42,001 nucleotides of DNA, taken from a virus. The stretch is taken from IMG/VR virus record IMGVR_UViG_3300022707_000735, positions 1-42,001 of that record, one strand, 5' to 3'. The position numbers were made by a program, and so were the translations under genes. Shown here piece after piece: positions 9,475-27,517 of the stretch. Each line of letters begins with the position of its first letter. Position 1 is the first letter of the stretch. Below the pieces are notes generated by a model. That model searched no databases. It was not told the DNA's origin and saw only the letters and a program-made list of their open reading frames with translations.

Positions 9475-9701
9475 ACGAATTTGAGCCAATAAAAGATTTA
9501 GCCGTAAAAATGCTAGAAAAATCACTAACATCTTTTGTCGGAATTGACAACGACATAAGAGATGAGCCGGATTCAATTTACAAAAGTAAGATTCAATCAA
9601 TTAAAAAAAGGATGAATGAGGCAGTAAAAAAAAATGATTCGGCTGCTATCCATCAATGCATCAAAGAACTAAACGAAATAGAAAGCCTTGCCAAAAACTG
9701 A
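9471..9701 (+). CDS. Small tail-region protein, unknown
   Basis: 76 residues, charged and mostly helical (Lys/Asp/Glu-rich), with no Cys and no membrane segment. It starts inside the preceding stop (ATGA) and overlaps the next gene, so it is translationally coupled on both sides. Position between two large distal-tail genes suggests a small assembly factor or linker. Not recognised. Confidence 0.6.
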   Translation: MNEFEPIKDLAVKMLEKSLTSFVGIDNDIRDEPDSIYKSKIQSIKKRMNEAVKKNDSAAIHQCIKELNEIESLAKN

Positions 9702-12156
9702 AATCATACAAGAAATAAAGTTCTTAAGTGAGTTTAAGAATGATATAGGATTTACCGCCAATACTGGAGACACTACGGCTAATCTTACGGGATTAGTCAT
9801 GGAAAACACCAAGACTATTCAACTTATTGAGATAGGATGGAGATCAGAAATATTAGCGACGGACACAGCAGACCCCTCCACTTTAACTTGGACGGTCTCC
9901 GTGTCTGGAAGTGTGGTAACGGTTATATCAACTAGTGCCGATCTTGTTGTTGATGATGGATGGAGTGTAACTGACAAATGTAACCTTACAATTGTAGTAT
10001 TATCCACTGGTACGTTCGTTTTTCCAAATGGGACGGTCACTTTTATTAGTAGTAATACTATGGTGATTTTGTTAGATAATGCGCCTCCTCCATTGCCTAT
10101 ACTTGCTGACACTGTTCATATAATAATCGAGAGTTTAGGATTCCCTAAGGCCTTAGAGTACAGCTTTGGATTAGTGAAAAATTCAGAGAATTTTAATAAA
10201 ACATCGAAAGTATCTGGAAATGCTCAGTCATTTTATGCGGCTTCAGATATTACAGGATCTTTCCAGACAATGATAAGGTTGGGAAATCCGCTTGACTGGG
10301 TAACTGGAACGGTTCGAGTAAGAAGAGTTGGTCCGTCTGGGTTTAATAATATTTATGAGATTGAGCATGAATTTACAATTGCGCCTTGGTATCTAGCCGG
10401 TGAATTATCTTTGTTGCAAAACAACATTTTACCTCCTAATTTTGCCAATGGCGAGTCTTTGAAATATACTTTCAAGGCTGATTTTATGAACGATTTTTCG
10501 AACCCAAACACAAAGACTACTATTGTTTGGGATCAAACATTAGGTAGCGTTGGATCGTACGGCATAAATTTTAACGGCTTTCAAAATGTTTACGCAATCG
10601 ACGCGATTACTTATGAGGACTTTGCCACAACAGCGACGGCAAGTGGAATAATAATAGGAGCTAAGACCAAAATTAGAATAACCTGTAGTACTACGGGCAC
10701 ACCATTTATTGCAGGTGAACGATATGGGATTTACATCTCTCAATTGCCAGAACAAATTGAATATCAAAACACAAATTTAACCAATCTTAAATCTAATTTT
10801 ATTTATGATAGGGCAATAGATAGTCAAGGAATAGGAGCATCTGGACAAGATTTCATACAAGCAATTAGTGCGACTATCGTATCGGGGAAATTAGAGATAG
10901 AATGCGATGTTGATTACTCAACAAACCAAAGAAATTTCTTATCTGGAAAGTTCGCGCAAGCTCCTTTTGGGTTCGTCTTAGGGGTTCAGTTAGGCGACAA
11001 CACAAAGACGAACGCAAACAGTAATAGGGTTATGTTAAGGGCGCCAATTGTGGACTATGACGAAAGCGCAGATATTCTAGGGTTAATGGATTTTAACTTC
11101 TTTAAATTTTTCCCACACGATGAAGATATAGTCACTACAGGTGGCCATACAGATTTAAGAGCGTGGATTGAAGATGGATTTGCCATTAAATTTAACTTCT
11201 TTTTAGATACGAATAAGTCTGCAGTAATAAAAAGTTTAGAATTTAACCTAATTGCTCATAATACTTCTAATGGTCAGATAATCATCTTAGATACGTTTCC
11301 ATATAATGTCGCTGGTGCTGTTGTTTCTGGAGGTATACAGCAATTGAACGTAAACACCAATAGAGGCTATAATTTAGCTCCTGGAAGTCAATTCAACGGT
11401 GTTACTTTAAGTATAGGATCCAATGCGGCAGGTTTGCAGAGTTATGGAGGTACTTTTGCACAAAAAGTAAGTTGGCAAGATTGGATTCCAAACGCTACGG
11501 TTGACACCATATTCTTTGACGCTTCAAAACCAAATAATAATTTCAATCTAAAATCTAGTAATTATTCAGCTTTGAATGGTTATGGTATTAAAATGGAGAT
11601 TACCGCAAGTGTTGACGGTGTAAGCCCTACTGGTGTGCCCGGCACAACTCCATATCAATTATTGAGTCCTGTGTTGACCGTCCATGATTATGATGAAGAT
11701 GGTAATATAACACCTGATTGGGTAGGTACTGTTGAGACCTTCCATCCTGTCACAGCAGCCAATTTAGGAGGTGCAGTATTGACAGGGCTAGACACTCCAT
11801 TTAAGATCACGTGGGCCAATGTATCGCCTCCAATTACTAGTATTGCAAATGTTTACGCTATCCATAGGATAGAAGAAGCGTTGCAATTAGGGTACAATAT
11901 GGACGAATTGAGTAGTATAAATCCTTTTCCAGTGCCAAATAGACTAATACCTAGTTCGGCTCAAACACAATTAACGGTTAACATAGTTGGTGGTGATGTA
12001 ATAACGGAAGGATTGACCGACAATACTCAGATAATACCAGGTAAGAAGTATAATTTATCTGGAAGAATCAAAGACGTTATAATAATAGAGGGAAAAGAAA
12101 CCGAACAAGGAGTATTAAAAGATACCGAACAAGGTGTACAAAAAGTAATCGAATGA
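9688..12156 (+). CDS. Large distal tail / baseplate structural protein
   Basis: 822 residues, Asn/Thr/Gly/Ile-rich beta sequence typical of virion proteins. The longest frame starts at a TTG (MPKTEIIQ..) within the preceding gene; an ATG near 9742 would remove about 18 residues. The C-terminus carries a near-repeat (TEQGVLKDTEQGVQKVIE). No receptor-binding or enzymatic motif was recognised. It lies between the hydrophobic distal-tail protein and further fibre-type genes, consistent with a tip or baseplate component. The stop overlaps the next start (ATGA). Confidence 0.65.
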   Translation: MPKTEIIQEIKFLSEFKNDIGFTANTGDTTANLTGLVMENTKTIQLIEIGWRSEILATDTADPSTLTWTVSVSGSVVTVISTSADLVVDDGWSVTDKCNLTIVVLSTGTFVFPNGTVTFISSNTMVILLDNAPPPLPILADTVHIIIESLGFPKALEYSFGLVKNSENFNKTSKVSGNAQSFYAASDITGSFQTMIRLGNPLDWVTGTVRVRRVGPSGFNNIYEIEHEFTIAPWYLAGELSLLQNNILPPNFANGESLKYTFKADFMNDFSNPNTKTTIVWDQTLGSVGSYGINFNGFQNVYAIDAITYEDFATTATASGIIIGAKTKIRITCSTTGTPFIAGERYGIYISQLPEQIEYQNTNLTNLKSNFIYDRAIDSQGIGASGQDFIQAISATIVSGKLEIECDVDYSTNQRNFLSGKFAQAPFGFVLGVQLGDNTKTNANSNRVMLRAPIVDYDESADILGLMDFNFFKFFPHDEDIVTTGGHTDLRAWIEDGFAIKFNFFLDTNKSAVIKSLEFNLIAHNTSNGQIIILDTFPYNVAGAVVSGGIQQLNVNTNRGYNLAPGSQFNGVTLSIGSNAAGLQSYGGTFAQKVSWQDWIPNATVDTIFFDASKPNNNFNLKSSNYSALNGYGIKMEITASVDGVSPTGVPGTTPYQLLSPVLTVHDYDEDGNITPDWVGTVETFHPVTAANLGGAVLTGLDTPFKITWANVSPPITSIANVYAIHRIEEALQLGYNMDELSSINPFPVPNRLIPSSAQTQLTVNIVGGDVITEGLTDNTQIIPGKKYNLSGRIKDVIIIEGKETEQGVLKDTEQGVQKVIE

Positions 12157-16939: not shown

Positions 16940-16969
16940 GTGTCTTTGGGTTCCTAATAATTTTACCAA

Positions 16970-16996
16970 AGCCCTCGATGTTGAGGGCTTCTTTTA
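16970..16996 (+). terminator. Rho-independent terminator after lysis genes
   Basis: Perfect 6-bp stem GCCCTC/GAGGGC (extended by flanking A-T pairs) with loop GATGTT, followed by TTCTTTTAT. It lies 31 bases after the holin stop, as expected for the end of the tail-lysis transcript. Confidence 0.85.
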
Positions 16997-17011
16997 TATC
17001 AAAAATAGTAG

Positions 17012-17019
17012 TATATTTG
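17012..17019 (+). promoter_or_regulatory. Possible -7 element TATATTTG between two terminators
   Basis: TATATTTG matches the Bacteroidota -7 consensus TAnnTTTG. No TTG is present at the usual -33 spacing, and a terminator follows about 40 bases later, so any transcript would be short. Weak candidate. Confidence 0.3.
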
Positions 17020-17060
17020 ACTTGAATTTAATCAAAGTTAGCCCTTTGTAAATTTAATTA

Positions 17061-17090
17061 AGCCATCCATTAATTTGGATGGCTTTTTTA
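17061..17090 (+). terminator. Second Rho-independent terminator
   Basis: Perfect 8-bp stem AGCCATCC/GGATGGCT with loop ATTAATTT, followed by a run of T. With the terminator 90 bases upstream it makes a double stop between the late and early transcription units. Confidence 0.88.
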
Positions 17091-17140
17091 TTATCTATAA
17101 ACCCCTATAAACATTGGATTATTAAAGTTATTCTAAAAAT

Positions 17141-17181
17141 AGTTGTGTAAGAAGTTGTGTAAGAATTAAAAGTTGTGTAAG
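17141..17181 (+). repeat. Three direct repeats of AGTTGTGTAAG
   Basis: Identical 11-bp units at 17141-17151, 17153-17163 and 17171-17181. The second contains the -33 TTG and the third runs into the -7 element of the promoter beside them, so they look like operator sites or an activator binding array controlling the early operon. Confidence 0.85.
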
Positions 17182-17185
17182 TTTG
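17155..17185 (+). promoter_or_regulatory. Early promoter, Bacteroidota type
   Basis: TTG at 17155-17157, a 20-base spacer and TAAGTTTG at 17178-17185 match the Bacteroidota primary sigma factor consensus (TTTG - about 19 bases - TAnnTTTG). It lies downstream of two terminators and about 40 bases before the first early gene. The -33 and -7 boxes are built partly from the 11-bp direct repeats, so regulation through those repeats is likely. Confidence 0.75.
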
Positions 17186-17228
17186 TAGGGTAGTAAGGAA
17201 ATCACCACTACAAAAAAGGGCTAACATT

Positions 17229-20889: not shown

Positions 20890-21531
20890 ATGTCAGAAAA
20901 AAATAAACTCGCTTTAGTAAATGAGGCCGATTTGAGTCTTGTCGAAGACAATTCATTAAACGCGAGTCAACTTGCAATAATACTAAGAAAAACGCCTAAA
21001 CAGTACTTAAAAACGCGACCCGCTAAAGGTGGTGGTACTTGGGATTACGTGTCAGGTGGATATATGAAAAAAATGCTAAACTTAATGTTTGGTTGGGATT
21101 GGGATTTTGAAATTGTAGATGAACAAATACTATTAGAAGCAAAAGAAGTGGTCGTAAAAGGTCGTTTGACTTGTCGTAGTGGTGGAAATACCATTGTTAA
21201 AATGCAGTATGGAAACAAGGACATAATGTTTAGGAGGGGAACTGATGTTCCCTTGTCAGTTGGTAACGATATGAAAGCAGCTGCAACGGATTGTTTAAAG
21301 AAGTGTGCTAGTGAGATTGGAATAGCTGCCGACGTCTACAATAAGGAGGACTTTAGAGAGGTGTTAGTAGACACTAACAACATTGAATATAACATTGAAA
21401 ATCTGAAAGAGCTTTACAAGTTAAAAAGTGAAAATTTATCTCCAGAAGATGATATGAATATTCAACGAATTATTGATACTGAAGACAAGACAAGCTACAA
21501 AAAAGCAATAAATCTATTAAAACAACTTTGA
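20890..21531 (+). CDS. Rad52/Rad22-like single-strand annealing protein
   Basis: 213 residues. Residues about 40-150 show the Rad52-type pattern: GWDWDFEIVDEQI, KGRLTCRSGGNTIVKMQYGNKDI, GNDMKAAATDCLKKCASEIGIAADVY. Phage members (for example the Sak group) anneal complementary single strands during recombination-dependent replication and repair. The C-terminal 60 residues are acidic and may contact SSB or the nuclease. The lambda-exonuclease-like nuclease gene lies about 350 bases downstream, forming a typical annealase-exonuclease pair. An exonuclease remnant sits directly after this gene. Confidence 0.85.
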   Translation: MSEKNKLALVNEADLSLVEDNSLNASQLAIILRKTPKQYLKTRPAKGGGTWDYVSGGYMKKMLNLMFGWDWDFEIVDEQILLEAKEVVVKGRLTCRSGGNTIVKMQYGNKDIMFRRGTDVPLSVGNDMKAAATDCLKKCASEIGIAADVYNKEDFREVLVDTNNIEYNIENLKELYKLKSENLSPEDDMNIQRIIDTEDKTSYKKAINLLKQL

Positions 21532-21532
21532 C

Positions 21533-21625
21533 ATGAAAAAGATATTAATAATAGATATTGAAACAACAGGATTCTTAAATGACGGTGGCAAAATCGTTGA
21601 AATTGGAATTTTTAAATTAAATTAA
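21533..21625 (+). pseudogene. Remnant of DnaQ/RNase T-like (DEDD) 3'-5' exonuclease
   Basis: Only 30 codons (MKKILIIDIETTGF..GGKIVEIGIFKLN), ending at TAA. The sequence is a clear ExoI motif: Asp8 and Glu10 in DIETTG, then IVEIG. In DEDD exonucleases this motif opens a domain of roughly 170-200 residues; the ExoII and ExoIII motifs are absent downstream in all frames I read. It is therefore a truncated fossil, or less likely a retained micro-peptide. It sits two bases after the annealing protein gene and one base before the next ATG. Confidence 0.7.
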
Positions 21626-21626
21626 T

Positions 21627-21875
21627 ATGAAGGCATTAGATATAGTTAAAACACCAAATGGTGGAATAGCAATTGTAAAAGAAACAATCAAAGGAGGTAC
21701 AGAGGCTTCCATTAGCTACATACAAGGTTGCAATCCCAGATCAGAGCATAATTCTTGGTGGTATGAGTATGAATTGAAAGTAATAGATTCAATACCAAGA
21801 CTACTTGCAAGTACTGCAGCACACCCGTTTGGATCCGGACAGGAGGATGTTAAGTTATTTTTTGGAACTAAATAA
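21627..21875 (+). CDS. Small protein between recombinase genes, unknown
   Basis: 82 residues of beta-type sequence (LDIVKTPNGGIAIVKETIKGG, NSWWYEYELKVIDSIPRLLAS). The stop is one base before the ATG of the nuclease gene, so it belongs to the recombination operon. No motif recognised. Confidence 0.6.
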   Translation: MKALDIVKTPNGGIAIVKETIKGGTEASISYIQGCNPRSEHNSWWYEYELKVIDSIPRLLASTAAHPFGSGQEDVKLFFGTK

Positions 21876-21876
21876 G

Positions 21877-22614
21877 ATGGATAATAACCGAAAAGGATCA
21901 TTTAGTAGCAGCGGAATATCTGCTTTAATGTCAAAAGGAAAGGGTGCATTTACTATTGATAATGTTGGAGCAACATATCATACTTATATTGACGAGAAGG
22001 TAATGGAGCGTGATCTGGGAAGATCCTTGAACACTGAGAATAGCGCCCGTTCAACTGCATGGGGAACCTTAGTCGAAGAACAGGCGTTTGATAAAATGGG
22101 GTTAAATTACTCCTTGGTTTCAAAGGAAAGATTTTATCATTCAGAATACAAAGACTATTGGTCTGGAATGCCGGATATAATAACTGATGTTGAAGTTGGA
22201 GATATTAAAAGTCCATGGACCTTGAAAAGTTTTTGTACTCTTATGAAGTCGTTAAAAGATTTTGACGAGACTGGATCAATTGAAATGCTCAAAAAGAATC
22301 ATCATACGTACTACTGGCAACTTGTATCGAACGCAATACTTTGTGATAAGGATAAAGCCATACTAATCGTTTACGTGCCTTACATGGAAGATTTGGATGA
22401 TATTAGAAAGCTTGCCGAGGAAAGAATTGGTGAAGAAAATAATCGATATGCATTTATTAATTGGGCCATAGATGACGAACTCCCTTATTTAATTAAAGGG
22501 GAAAAGTATCAAGATCTAAATATTATGCAATTTGACATTCCAAAAGAGGATAAGATCCTTTTAACCAAGCGTGTTAAAATGGGAATTACTGAAATGAAAA
22601 AATTCACAATCTAA
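21877..22614 (+). CDS. Lambda exonuclease/YqaJ-like PD-(D/E)XK nuclease
   Basis: 245 residues from the ATG right after the preceding stop; a longer frame into that gene exists but is less likely. Core motifs: AWGTLVEEQA (Glu67/Glu68), YWSGMPDIITDVEVGDIKSPW with Asp100, Asp109 and Lys111 as PD-(D/E)XK metal-site residues, and YYWQLVSNAIL with Gln148. This matches the viral recombination exonuclease fold, which resects duplex ends 5' to 3' and hands single strands to an annealing protein, here the Rad52-like protein upstream. Confidence 0.85.
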   Translation: MDNNRKGSFSSSGISALMSKGKGAFTIDNVGATYHTYIDEKVMERDLGRSLNTENSARSTAWGTLVEEQAFDKMGLNYSLVSKERFYHSEYKDYWSGMPDIITDVEVGDIKSPWTLKSFCTLMKSLKDFDETGSIEMLKKNHHTYYWQLVSNAILCDKDKAILIVYVPYMEDLDDIRKLAEERIGEENNRYAFINWAIDDELPYLIKGEKYQDLNIMQFDIPKEDKILLTKRVKMGITEMKKFTI

Positions 22615-23605: not shown

Positions 23606-24337
23606 ATGAAAGAAAAAAAATCATTCGTATTATACTCAGACTTAATACACACCACTCAGCTACTATCAAATGAAGATGCCGGGAAGGTCTTTAAATGGGT
23701 TTTAGATTATGTTAACGATAATTACCCTGAACCACTAGAAGGGTTGCTTTCTGCTGTGTGTGAGCCTATTAAGCAGCAATTAAAACGTGACTTAATCAAG
23801 TATGAAAAGAAGAGGGAACAGTACTCTGTAGCTGGAAAACTGAGTGCTGAATCAAGAAGGTTAAAGAAGGAAAAAGAAATCAACGAACGTCAACGAACGT
23901 TAACGAACGTTGAAGAACGTTCAACGAAATCAACTGTAAGTGTTAATGTAAGTGTTAATGATAATGTAAATGATATAAATAAACAAAAAGTTTACTCTAT
24001 CGAGGTAAACGAGTGTTTTAATTCTATTTTAGATCATTTCCCCAAGTCTTTACATCCAGATACGAAGAAAAAGAAAATAACTTGGTTAAAAACTATTGAC
24101 GAATTGAATAGGATAGATAAGATACCTTTTAAGCATATTAAATTAGTTGTTAAGGGTATCAGAAACGATGATTTCTGGAGTCGAAACTTCTTAAGCATAC
24201 ATAAGCTTAGAAAATCAAATAAAGAGGGTATAAAGTACTATATCGTTTTCTTGGAACATTTAAAATCAAAAAAGAATGAATCTAAAAATCAAAAGAATGG
24301 CGAAACTAAGGAGTCATTCGATATAAATAAATACTAG
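23606..24337 (+). CDS. Replication initiator-like protein with internal origin (lambda O position)
   Basis: 243 residues. Residues 1-80 (FVLYSDLIHTTQLLSNEDAGKVFKWVLDYV..) match the short N-terminal domain (DUF6291-like) of phage replication proteins. Residues about 85-125 are a polar linker (NERQRTLTNVEERSTKST, VSVNVSVNDNVND). Residues 130-215 form a helical C-terminal domain (FKHIKLVVKGIRNDDFWSRNFLS). Separate end domains joined by a linker that carries iterons, upstream of DnaB, copies the design of lambda O, so I read this as the origin-binding initiator. The lambda analogy is inferred. Confidence 0.7.
   Translation: MKEKKSFVLYSDLIHTTQLLSNEDAGKVFKWVLDYVNDNYPEPLEGLLSAVCEPIKQQLKRDLIKYEKKREQYSVAGKLSAESRRLKKEKEINERQRTLTNVEERSTKSTVSVNVSVNDNVNDINKQKVYSIEVNECFNSILDHFPKSLHPDTKKKKITWLKTIDELNRIDKIPFKHIKLVVKGIRNDDFWSRNFLSIHKLRKSNKEGIKYYIVFLEHLKSKKNESKNQKNGETKESFDINKY
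23881..23990 (+). other. Likely origin of replication: 10-bp iterons plus AT-rich region inside the initiator gene
   Basis: Tandem units CAACGAACGT (23881), CAACGAACGT (23891), TAACGAACGT (23901) and TGAAGAACGT (23911), with a degenerate fifth unit at 23921, are followed from about 23938 by AT-rich DNA containing AGTGTTAATG twice. Ten bases is not a multiple of three, so the repeat is conserved at DNA level rather than as protein repeats. The order iterons then AT-rich stretch, inside the linker of the initiator gene, matches lambda ori. Confidence 0.65.
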
Positions 24338-24342
24338 AAACT

Positions 24343-24555
24343 ATGAAAGGAGAAAGAAGGGGCAGAAAAAGAATAAACGATAAAACCTTAGCTCAAATAA
24401 AGATTGATTGTTTTGTATGCGAAGGTGTTGGGTCGCATTTCGGAGGTGATTGCGCTTGTAATGGGTCTGGCAAAGAAAAACTTAGAAGAGCGCTACAGCG
24501 AGTTTATAATCTAGAAAATGACTTTGATAAATCATATAATATAAATCAATACTAA
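24343..24555 (+). CDS. Small DnaJ-type zinc-finger protein
   Basis: 70 residues: basic N-terminus (KGERRGRKR), then CFVCEGVG (C23, C26) and CACNGSG (C37, C39). These are two halves of the CxxCxGxG zinc site known from DnaJ. No J domain. It lies between the initiator-like gene and DnaB, where helicase loaders are often encoded. A loading or accessory role is possible but unproven. Confidence 0.65.
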   Translation: MKGERRGRKRINDKTLAQIKIDCFVCEGVGSHFGGDCACNGSGKEKLRRALQRVYNLENDFDKSYNINQY

Positions 24556-24566
24556 AAATAGAAATC

Positions 24567-24767
24567 ATGGAAAAAACAATGAAAGTAGTAAAAGTAACAT
24601 GTGAAGAGGCAACTCTCTATTTAAGCGCTCAAGCAATAGATGAAGCACTAGAGGTTGTAAAACAGCAAATACTAGATAATCCAGAAGAAGATTTGGAAAT
24701 CATAATCAACTATGAAGATATGGACGGAGAGGAATTTTATAATCTTCCAGAATTTGACGGATTTTAA
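24567..24767 (+). CDS. Small acidic protein, unknown
   Basis: 66 residues, strongly acidic (NPEEDLEIIINYEDMDGEEF) after a beta-alpha N-terminus. It is encoded 11 bases before DnaB in the same operon. The acidic character could mimic DNA or bind a replication protein; this is speculation. Confidence 0.55.
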   Translation: MEKTMKVVKVTCEEATLYLSAQAIDEALEVVKQQILDNPEEDLEIIINYEDMDGEEFYNLPEFDGF

Positions 24768-24778
24768 AAAAGCCTAAA

Positions 24779-26167
24779 ATGAAAAAATCACAACGATTAG
24801 TTAAAAGGGAAGTACTGGAGCATGGAAAGTTACCACCTCAGGCGGTTGACTTGGAGGAGGCTGTGATTGGGGCTATATTGCTTGAAAAACAAGCGATGTT
24901 TTGTGTTAGAAAGATATTGAGTGTTGAATGTTTTTACAAGGATAAGCACCAAAAGATTTACCAAGCTTGTTTGGACCTAGATAATGACTCTGATCCAATC
25001 GACATTTTAACTATCACCAATAGACTAAAGAAAAAGGGAGAGCTTGAATTGGTTGGTGGTGCTTATCTTTTATCGCAGTTAACAAACAGGGTCGCCTCGA
25101 CGGCTAATATCGAGTATCACGCAATGATAGTACTGGAAAAGTACACAAAACGGAAACAAATCTCATTAGGTTCTGACATAATTACTCAGGCATACGATGA
25201 AACTATTGACGTTTTAAGCACAAACGAGCTCATTTCAACCATTGGTTCCGAACTGTTAAATATGATCGAGCCCAACGAAGAAAAAAGTATTTCAGATTTG
25301 ATAAGATTGGCAACTACAGAAATCGAAAAAGCTGAAAAAAACGAAGGAATAAGCGGTATACAGACAGGATTCAAAGAATTAGATGATACCACAGGAGGAT
25401 GGCAGGATACTGACTTAATCGTTATTGCTGCACGCCCATCTATGGGTAAAACATCCTATGTATTAACCATGGCACGTAATATAGCTGTTGACTTCGAAAA
25501 GCACGTGGCCTTTTTCAGCTTAGAAATGTCTGACATTGATTTAGTTATTAGGTTGATTTCGGCAGAAACTCAAATTCATCATAAAAAATTAAAAAAAGGG
25601 AACCTATCAAATGAAGATTGGATAGCATATAATAAGAAAATTTCCCCTTTAATAAGCGAGAAACTACATATTTTTGATCATATCATGACAATTCAAGGCA
25701 TAAAATCAAAATGCCTTCAACTACATCTTGAAGGCAAGTTGGATATTATAATGATTGATTATATGCAGCTTATTGAATACCCTGGATTCAAAGGCAACAG
25801 AGAAGGTGAAGTAAGTAAAATTTCTAGGACGCTTAAACTTTTAGCAAAGGAATTGAAAGTGCCCGTAATTGTGCTAAGCCAATTGTCAAGAGGTGTTGAA
25901 AGTAGATCTACAAAGAAGCCCCAATTGTCAGATTTGCGTGATTCAGGAGCCATTGAACAGGATGCCGATGTGGTTCAATTCCTATTTAGACCGGATTATT
26001 ACGAATTGCCAAACTCACCTAAAGGGCTTGCATTAGGCTTAATCAAGAAAAACAGAAACGGAGAACTAAAGAATATTAAAATGAAATTTATCCCGGAATA
26101 CGTACAGTTTAAAGATTGGGAAGAAGAAAGTAGCCAATTCCCAACTAATGATGATACACCTTTTTAG
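24779..26167 (+). CDS. dnaB: Replicative DNA helicase, DnaB family
   Basis: 462 residues, full length for the family. N-terminal domain starts PPQAVDLEEAVIGAILLEKQAM (about 19-40) with AGGAYLLSQLTN-like continuation (VGGAYLLSQLTNRVAST). RecA-like domain: AARPSMGKTSYVLTMARN is Walker A near 216-225; FFSLEMSD follows; IDIIMIDYMQLIE-type Walker B (DIIMIDYMQLI); LSQLSRGVESR.KKPQLSDLRDSGAIEQDAD is the arginine-finger and sensor region. It unwinds the fork as a hexamer. It follows initiator-like and zinc-finger genes, so loading is probably phage-encoded. Confidence 0.96.
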   Translation: MKKSQRLVKREVLEHGKLPPQAVDLEEAVIGAILLEKQAMFCVRKILSVECFYKDKHQKIYQACLDLDNDSDPIDILTITNRLKKKGELELVGGAYLLSQLTNRVASTANIEYHAMIVLEKYTKRKQISLGSDIITQAYDETIDVLSTNELISTIGSELLNMIEPNEEKSISDLIRLATTEIEKAEKNEGISGIQTGFKELDDTTGGWQDTDLIVIAARPSMGKTSYVLTMARNIAVDFEKHVAFFSLEMSDIDLVIRLISAETQIHHKKLKKGNLSNEDWIAYNKKISPLISEKLHIFDHIMTIQGIKSKCLQLHLEGKLDIIMIDYMQLIEYPGFKGNREGEVSKISRTLKLLAKELKVPVIVLSQLSRGVESRSTKKPQLSDLRDSGAIEQDADVVQFLFRPDYYELPNSPKGLALGLIKKNRNGELKNIKMKFIPEYVQFKDWEEESSQFPTNDDTPF

Positions 26168-26176
26168 AAAGAAATT

Positions 26177-26812
26177 ATGAAAGTACTAAATTTATATGCC
26201 GGCATAGGAGGAAATAGAAAGTTATGGGGAGATAAACACGATATAACTGCTATTGAATCTAATGAAGAAGTATCAAAAATATACCAAGGATTTTTTCCAA
26301 ATGATAAAGTGATAATTACGGATGCTCACGAATATCTATTGGAATATTACCGTGATTTTGATTTTATTTGGAGTAGTCCACCTTGTCCGACTCATAGTAG
26401 AATGGCAATAAGTGGTAAAAACAGACGAAAAACAAAATATCCATCTATGAAGTTATACGAAGAAATACTGATGTTACAACAGTTTTTTAAAGGAAAATAT
26501 GTGGTTGAAAATGTTAAACCATATTATACACCATTAATACCGCCGCAGATAACTGATCGGCATTGTTTTTGGGCTAACTTCGTAATAACTAAAAATGAAA
26601 TACCAAAAAGAGGAGATTTGTTAGCTTCATCAAAGGAGGATTTATGTAAGTGGTTGGGTTTTGATAATTTCCCAAATGTTTATTTAAACGGGAATCACTG
26701 TGATAGACAAGTATTAAGAAATTGTGTACATCCTGAAACTGGATTACACATATTCAATTTAGCCAGGGGAATAATAATAGACAATAATGTCAATCAAGGG
26801 AAACTATTTTAA
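26177..26812 (+). CDS. Short C5-cytosine DNA methyltransferase-like protein
   Basis: 211 residues. LNLYAGIGGNR (motif I, SAM binding), WSSPPCPTHSR with Cys70 (motif IV, catalytic PC) and VVENVKPYY with Glu111-Asn112-Val113 (motif VI, ENV) are all in place; NGNHCDRQVLRNCVHPETGLHIF ends the domain. The protein is shorter than usual and lacks a clear target recognition domain and a full motif VIII-X. It may methylate phage DNA against host restriction. Activity is likely but not certain. Confidence 0.8.
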   Translation: MKVLNLYAGIGGNRKLWGDKHDITAIESNEEVSKIYQGFFPNDKVIITDAHEYLLEYYRDFDFIWSSPPCPTHSRMAISGKNRRKTKYPSMKLYEEILMLQQFFKGKYVVENVKPYYTPLIPPQITDRHCFWANFVITKNEIPKRGDLLASSKEDLCKWLGFDNFPNVYLNGNHCDRQVLRNCVHPETGLHIFNLARGIIIDNNVNQGKLF

Positions 26813-26821
26813 ACAAATAAC

Positions 26822-27517
26822 ATGAGATGTAACAACCCAAATTGCAAAGATAAGTTTGAAGCAAAAGTTTTTCTGCAAAAACATTGTATGGAAAAGGATG
26901 AATGTATACAAATGGAATTGGAGTATAAAAAGGAGAAAGCAAGGAAGCAACAAAAAAAGGAATGGGATGCCGAAAAGACAGAGAAAGCCCCATATCTGTA
27001 TCCAAGGAAATACAAGAAGTTTCTATCTGATGAATGCCAGAAACTTGCTAGGATGATTGACAACCACTTTGGGTACTTATGCATTGATTGTGGTAAACCG
27101 TACGGCAAACAGCAAGATGGGGGGCACTTCAATAGTAAAGGAAAGAATATGTCTTTAGCTTGGAACTTGCACAACATACACAGCCAGAAAAGCGACTGCA
27201 ATCAAAACGGTTTAGGAGGCGGTAGAGAGCGTCAATATTATGATGGGTTAATAAGTAGGTACGGTGAGAGATACGCTGTATACGTTGACATAGGACTGCA
27301 AAAAGAATACAAATACATTGGATTGCTCGATACTGAAATTGCTGAAAAATTAGCGCTTGTAAGAAAGCTAATTAGAACATTCGACACATTTGTACTAACC
27401 GATTCAATCAGTGCCAGATTCATGTTCAACAGATTAATTGGTATTTATCCAACTGATTTAGGAGCAATCGATTTTATTGAGAATAACCAACAGGATGAAA
27501 AATTAACACTATTTTAA
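26822..27517 (+). CDS. ninG: NinG-like recombination protein
   Basis: 231 residues. Cys-rich N-terminus (CNNPNCKDKF..KHC), a long Lys/Glu/Arg helix (about 35-60), then CIDCGKPYGKQQDGGHFNSKG, NLHNIHSQKSDCNQNGLGGG and YDGLISRYGERY, the characteristic NinG/Rap order. Lambda Rap is a branch-specific nuclease for Holliday and three-strand junctions. It would resolve intermediates made by the annealase-exonuclease pair. Confidence 0.85.
   Translation: MRCNNPNCKDKFEAKVFLQKHCMEKDECIQMELEYKKEKARKQQKKEWDAEKTEKAPYLYPRKYKKFLSDECQKLARMIDNHFGYLCIDCGKPYGKQQDGGHFNSKGKNMSLAWNLHNIHSQKSDCNQNGLGGGRERQYYDGLISRYGERYAVYVDIGLQKEYKYIGLLDTEIAEKLALVRKLIRTFDTFVLTDSISARFMFNRLIGIYPTDLGAIDFIENNQQDEKLTLF

Follow-up and report, generated by a model that had tools for sequence, protein, structure and literature searches.

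Replication origins that lie inside the gene of their own initiator are already known from phage lambda and from the RepA_N plasmids. In lambda the origin occupies the middle of the O gene, where iterons and then an AT-rich region stand between the parts that encode the DNA-binding N-terminal portion and the C-terminal portion of the protein (PMC7466680). In the RepA_N plasmid pSK41 the origin is inside rep and the linker that it encodes is dispensable as protein, and in a chimeric pPR9 Rep the N-terminal domain and the origin have been exchanged together, relative to a C-terminal domain that is host-specific (PMC5703833). In the literature that we searched, ori-lambda, pSK41 and PLE RepA were the only relevant precedents, no paper treated DUF6291, DUF1376 or DUF4373 proteins as initiators, and we found no description of a rule that links a motif of the initiator to the repeated word of its origin. 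The novelty lies in the families, in a hexamer element and, above all, in this motif-to-word rule.

The window analysed here, that is, the whole stretch of 42,001 nucleotides, is a 42-kb virus contig from IMG/VR. The nearest named relatives of its initiator gene are in Cellulophaga, Olleya and Flavobacterium phages, and because of these relatives a Bacteroidetes host is likely. The initiator belongs to the Pfam family PF19808 (DUF6291), which matches residues 6-79 with 61.8 bits (curated cut-off 27.2), and the DnaD-like helicase loader family phrog_2514 matches residues 90-221 (E 1.8e-9). The C-terminal domain also matches the DnaD-like loader of Cellulophaga phage phi18:3 (46%, tblastn) and is likely to be the part that contacts the helicase. 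The features of the locus are listed in Table 1. The first-pass annotation of this DNA had placed the initiator gene immediately before dnaB; the two genes are in fact 441 bp apart, with two small ORFs between them. Upstream of the initiator gene a Rad52-like annealing protein is encoded beside a phrog_4763/exonuclease-like protein (20890-22614), and these genes together with NinG, which is encoded downstream (26822-27517), make up a lambda-like recombination module. A 211-residue ORF (26177-26812) may encode a short or truncated methyltransferase, as its match to the C-5 cytosine methylase family extends over the first third of that family and no further.

Table 1. Features of the initiator locus (positions in the window).
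Feature	Position	Strand	Size or basis
Initiator gene: DUF6291 N-domain, basic motif, linker with repeats, DnaD-like C-domain	23606..24337	+	243 aa
N-terminal domain, residues 1-76	23606..23833	+	two helices and start of long third helix (47-94)
Proposed DNA-reading motif GKLSAESRR, residues 77-85, on long basic helix	23834..23860	+	mutual information; cross-family prediction
Iteron array	23880..23934	+	phased words; codon-shuffle test; synonymous conservation
Word TCAAC	23880		
Word TCAAC	23890		
Word TTAAC	23900		
Word GTTGA, inverted/degenerate	23909		
Word TCAAC	23921		
Word TCAAC	23930		
Six-base repeat array (GWWRNW)n, candidate unwinding element	23936..23977	+	encodes SVNVSVNDNVNDI tract
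C-terminal DnaD-like domain	23993..24262	+	phrog_2514; tblastn match
Two small ORFs between initiator gene and DnaB	24343-24555, 24567-24767		
Phage replicative helicase DnaB	24779..26167	+	PF03796 E 3.9e-91, plus PF00772

The repeats lie in the linker of the initiator, as the first-pass annotation had stated, between the N-terminal and C-terminal domains, and our analysis confirms that they are real. They had been described as four 10-bp units with a fifth, degenerate one; the array instead has six phased positions and starts one base further upstream. Three of the units are near-exact (TCAACGAACG, TCAACGAACG and TTAACGAACG) and a fourth, TTGAAGAACG, is degraded. The array is the top tandem segment (period 8, 10, 11 or 13) of the whole 42 kb, with a score of 23, against a best of 13 and a mean of 9 for the same score in 40 dinucleotide shuffles. 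The density of TCAAC/GTTGA also peaks here, at 5 per 100 bp (3 at the next-highest site of the contig), and the exact unit AACGAACGTY is found nowhere else in the contig. The period of 10 was said to shift the frame from unit to unit and to leave the protein non-repetitive, and this holds: the units occupy all three frames and the linker peptide, NERQRTLTNVEERSTKST, is without repetition. In DUF6291 genes with words of the TCAAC type, the spacing between words on the same strand is 9-10, 20-21, 30-31 or 39-40 bp, that is, whole helical turns. Elsewhere in the window a 24-bp repeat of two and a half copies (12093-12153) stands at the end of the ORF 9688-12156; since its unit length is a multiple of three, it is probably a repeat of the protein.

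A low-complexity linker might be kept for its properties as protein, with the repeats merely following, and tracts of VN/DN, TD or SP are indeed common in such proteins. In a codon test, the protein and its codon usage were held fixed, synonymous codons were permuted, and we counted pairs of repeats whose distance was not a multiple of three. In the window gene there were 23 such pairs, against a mean of 0.9 and a maximum of 10 in 200 permutations. In the linkers of 55 non-redundant DUF6291 genes there were 425 pairs against 64+-11 after permutation (maximum 103), so that permuting codons under a fixed protein removes most of the signal; the excess was little in the N-terminal domains of these genes (77 pairs against 60+-9) and moderate in the C-terminal domains (151 against 105+-12). 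Synonymous codons are also conserved. Among ten genes with the same word, matching residues share their codon in 93% of cases within the iterons, compared with 76% for the hexamer stretch and 51% for the N-terminal domain, the pairs not being independent, so that only the contrast between regions is meaningful. In pairs that include the window gene, the identical codon is used at 116 of 121 matching iteron residues (96%) and at 226 of 476 residues of the N-terminal domain (47%). The earlier suggestion that selection acts on the DNA is thus upheld by both the codon permutation and the synonymous conservation. Selection on the repeat DNA is well supported, and retention for the sake of the peptide is hardly plausible as the explanation of the repeats.

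Conservation of the repeats in relatives with the same gene had been put forward as a check, and the array is kept in all six of the first relatives. DUF6291 was found in only three of 296 Bacteroidota genomes, and for this reason the relatives were drawn from viral contigs. In nearly all genes of this wider set the order is the same: N-terminal domain, basic motif, phased words, six-base repeats, C-terminal domain. Neutral tandem duplication by slippage in a tolerant linker could have produced 10-bp units, and three units of the window array do stand in tandem and are nearly identical. This is nevertheless a very improbable account of the array, as relatives 54-79% identical over the N-terminal domain and helix retain the words and their codons, and the phasing, the word identity and the hexamer junction are kept where the units are not tandem copies. 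In most relatives the C-terminal domain is of another type than in the window protein. Sorted by sequence, the domains of 54 genes make up 19 clusters, the same cluster can stand behind words of several types, and several match replisome organizer, O-like or DnaD-like loader families. Judged from these clusters, C-terminal domains are freely exchanged among DUF6291 initiators. We saw no clear link between the type of C-terminal domain and the type of helicase encoded downstream in a comparison in which many genes were scored 'none'. Two of the DUF6291 phages, phi19:3 and Harreka_1 (L229 and L476), also encode a small DnaA-like helix-turn-helix protein, and in Rhizobium phage RHph_N28_2 (L219) the gene for such a protein lies directly 3' of a DUF1376 gene.

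The repeats had been said to be followed by AT-rich DNA. The DNA after the iterons is A+T-rich; it is not plain AT-rich sequence, and consists of ordered six-base units, GTAAGTGTTAATGTAAGTGTTAATGATAATGTAAATGATATA. In most relatives this six-base array abuts the last word.

The layout resembles that of lambda, in that an array of repeats inside the initiator gene is followed by A+T-rich DNA, within a replication module of a phage in which a helicase function is encoded downstream (PMC7466680). A Pfam search of the window protein gave only PF19808 and did not find PF04492, the N-terminal domain of lambda O; the O-like family phrog_391 matches weakly (E 2.9e-4), over the linker and C-terminal domain. 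Lambda iterons are about 18-19 bp long and have an internal dyad, whereas the words here have a core of about 5 bp and recur every 9-10 bp. This locus also differs in its hexamer array, in having many interchangeable C-terminal domains, in a word that is set by a short motif, and in that the phage has its own DnaB where lambda has a P-type loader. Of the earlier proposal that the organization equals that of the lambda origin, by shared descent or convergence, the analogy of layout therefore stands, and shared descent is not supported. Because the protein combines PF19808 and a DnaD-like C-terminal domain without PF04492, and because its words are short, convergence appears the better reading. 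The RepA_N plasmids offer a second likeness, since here too, as far as layout can tell, the presumed origin is in the initiator gene and the N-terminal domain and origin can be exchanged as a unit. The Pfam search gave no match in the window protein to the RepA_N winged-helix domain, PF06970, and RepA_N proteins place a winged helix on larger, semi-palindromic boxes, whereas our DUF6291 model has no winged helix.

We consider it probable that positions 23880-23977 are a replication origin inside the initiator gene. The initiator would bind the TCAAC words through the basic helix that ends its N-terminal domain. The words, on one face of the DNA and one or more helical turns apart, would align several copies of the initiator. 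The adjacent six-base array would then open, and the DnaD-like C-terminal domain would recruit the phage DnaB, whose gene follows downstream. The linker peptide would be mainly a by-product of translating origin DNA, and the motif would dictate the word, such that other phages pair other motifs with other words while C-terminal domains are exchanged freely. We infer the steps of binding, opening and loading, and with them the start of replication at this site, from the anatomy of the locus, with lambda O and pSK41 Rep as precedents. The repeats could instead bind the initiator as an autoregulatory, partition or packaging site, with replication starting elsewhere. By sequence alone a binding array and an origin are indistinguishable, and the contig has other repeats, for example three copies of AGTTGTGTAAG at 17141-17181, within the intergenic region 16940-17228, which are possibly an operator site. 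We nonetheless regard such a role as unlikely, given that most relatives have A+T-rich six-base repeats directly next to the words, that the array separates a DNA-binding domain from one of loader type and lies upstream of DnaB, and that lambda O and pSK41 rep, alike in layout, contain proven origins. GC skew was uninformative for locating the origin because it follows gene direction. When the density of a single 5-mer was used as a genome-wide marker of the origin, the linker was the densest site in the window and in Flavobacterium phage 11b and was tied in Olleya phage Harreka_1; for the single 5-mer tested it was not the densest site in Pseudomonas phage AH02 or in Leptolyngbya phage Lbo-JY16.

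The repeated word varies by lineage, with types TCAAC, ATAAC, ATAGC, ATCGC, AAGC, AACCC/T and ATGC, and the type tracks the short basic motif that ends the N-terminal domain. The sequence SA goes with TCAAC, GGRP with AACCC, A..SA..RW with ATGCG and GN..RW with ATCGC, among other pairs; a few genes fit no motif class. Genes with DUF1376 (YdaU-like) and DUF4373 (Lin1244_N) domains, which occur in phages of Proteobacteria and Cyanobacteria as well as in metagenome viruses, have the same succession of N-terminal domain, basic motif, phased words, hexamers and C-terminal domain, and follow the same motif-to-word rule, although they belong to other Pfam families and their hexamers (GATACA, TTCACC, GTAAAG) differ from those of DUF6291. 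We trained a word classifier, based on codon-corrected 5-mer profiles, on one family and tested it on the other two, with 5000 label permutations. Training on DUF4373 gave 117 of 117 correct (permutation mean 83, maximum 96), training on DUF1376 79 of 87 (mean 46, maximum 59) and training on DUF6291 87 of 143, or 61% (mean 34, maximum 50); these tests are not blind, as we defined the motif classes and compiled the word list with the data of all families already in view, the permutations ignore relatedness, and the sampling of classes is biased, as search alignments A1, A3 and A4 included the motif and A1 also linker residues. The failures after training on DUF6291 were mostly in the RW class, of which DUF6291 has four examples. 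Within the RW class, position 4 of the motif tracks the fifth base of the word: in 36 of 41 genes of three families S goes with ATGCG, in seven of seven genes of two families K or R goes with ATGCC, and in 26 of 26 DUF1376 genes A goes with ATGCT. The last of these rules fails in DUF4373, with four genes for it and five against.

In DUF6291, with the alignment anchored on the conserved RD of the N-terminal domain and residues numbered as in the window protein, mutual information with the DNA word is highest at residues 81, 80, 85 and 82 and has lesser peaks at 73, 76, 88 and 69; it is near zero at residues 40-63, which is weak evidence as many of these positions in the N-terminal domain are nearly invariant. 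The motif and the repeats are adjacent, 20-60 bp apart, and phage replication genes are mosaic, so the two might be associated because they travel together by descent or recombination, with no recognition between them. Against this, the association survives where the spacing, the frame and the number of repeats differ, a difference of one residue goes with a difference of one base, and between families the codons of shared motifs resemble each other only as much as expected from codon usage (observed and expected identity 0.35 and 0.33 for SA, 0.21 and 0.23 for RW, 0.20 and 0.22 for GGRP; GN genes were too few). This codon result also makes a recent joint transfer of motif and repeats as a cassette unlikely. 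Joint inheritance without recognition therefore seems to us quite unlikely, and we infer that a single basic helix may read about five bases.

The AlphaFold2 model of DUF6291, built with 52 relatives (pLDDT 83.7, pTM 0.59), has helices at residues 5-17 and 22-36 and one long helix at 47-94 that carries the motif; it has no winged helix, and a fold search of the PDB gave no match at E<=0.001. The model of DUF1376 (pLDDT 86.7, pTM 0.74) has a winged helix and, after it, a basic helix at residues 81-103, and its only matches among PDB folds were weak ones to winged-helix, MarR and DnaD-N folds. In the modelled DUF1376 protein the GGRP motif sits past the confident part of the helix. Profile comparison gave 56% for DUF6291 with DUF1376, 85% for DUF1376 with DUF4373 and 90% for DUF6291 with DUF4373, the last over the helix only, which suggests that the three families are distantly related. 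From the two models and the profile comparison together, the basic helix is likely to be the part common to the three families and the reader of the DNA, although in DUF1376 the predicted winged-helix domain could do the reading instead. The basic region of eukaryotic bZIP proteins has the register N-x-x-A-A-x-x-S/C-R on one long basic helix, and the spacing of the initiator motif, G/A-x-x-[SGAK]-[AGMN]-x-x-R-[RW], appears to resemble it. This likeness need not reflect homology, no leucine zipper is seen in the DUF6291 monomer model, and the repeats here are direct and spaced at one helical turn, in contrast to the single dyad of bZIP sites.

On balance we favour a more general proposal, namely that in phages of Bacteroidota, Proteobacteria and Cyanobacteria the initiators of three domain families recognize the origins inside their own genes by a short motif on a basic helix that follows a simple residue-to-base code, that the word is predictable from the protein, and that in many phage proteins the low-complexity linker is origin DNA in translation. 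If this is true, sequence alone would suffice to locate the origin within about 100 bp in many uncultured phages, a function could be assigned to the DUF6291, DUF1376 and DUF4373 domains, and the NVNVN, TDTDTD and SPSPSP linkers of these proteins would be accounted for. It would also provide a compact code of protein-DNA recognition with hundreds of natural test cases. In the YdaU linker of Rac-type prophages (L226:2950-4020, ydaU of Escherichia phage Rac-SA53; L124-L199) there are words of the GTTCAAAC type and GATACAGATAAAGAT hexamers, and the active origin of Rac, oriJ, might be situated there; an active origin in Rac is confirmed by a published paper, in a passage that does not map oriJ to ydaU. 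A subgroup of DUF1376 genes (L318, L319, L339, L373, L391 and L395) has an arginine-rich sequence, ERQRRxRERRK, together with GTCACG/CGTGAC words that are partly palindromic (GTCACGCGTGAC).
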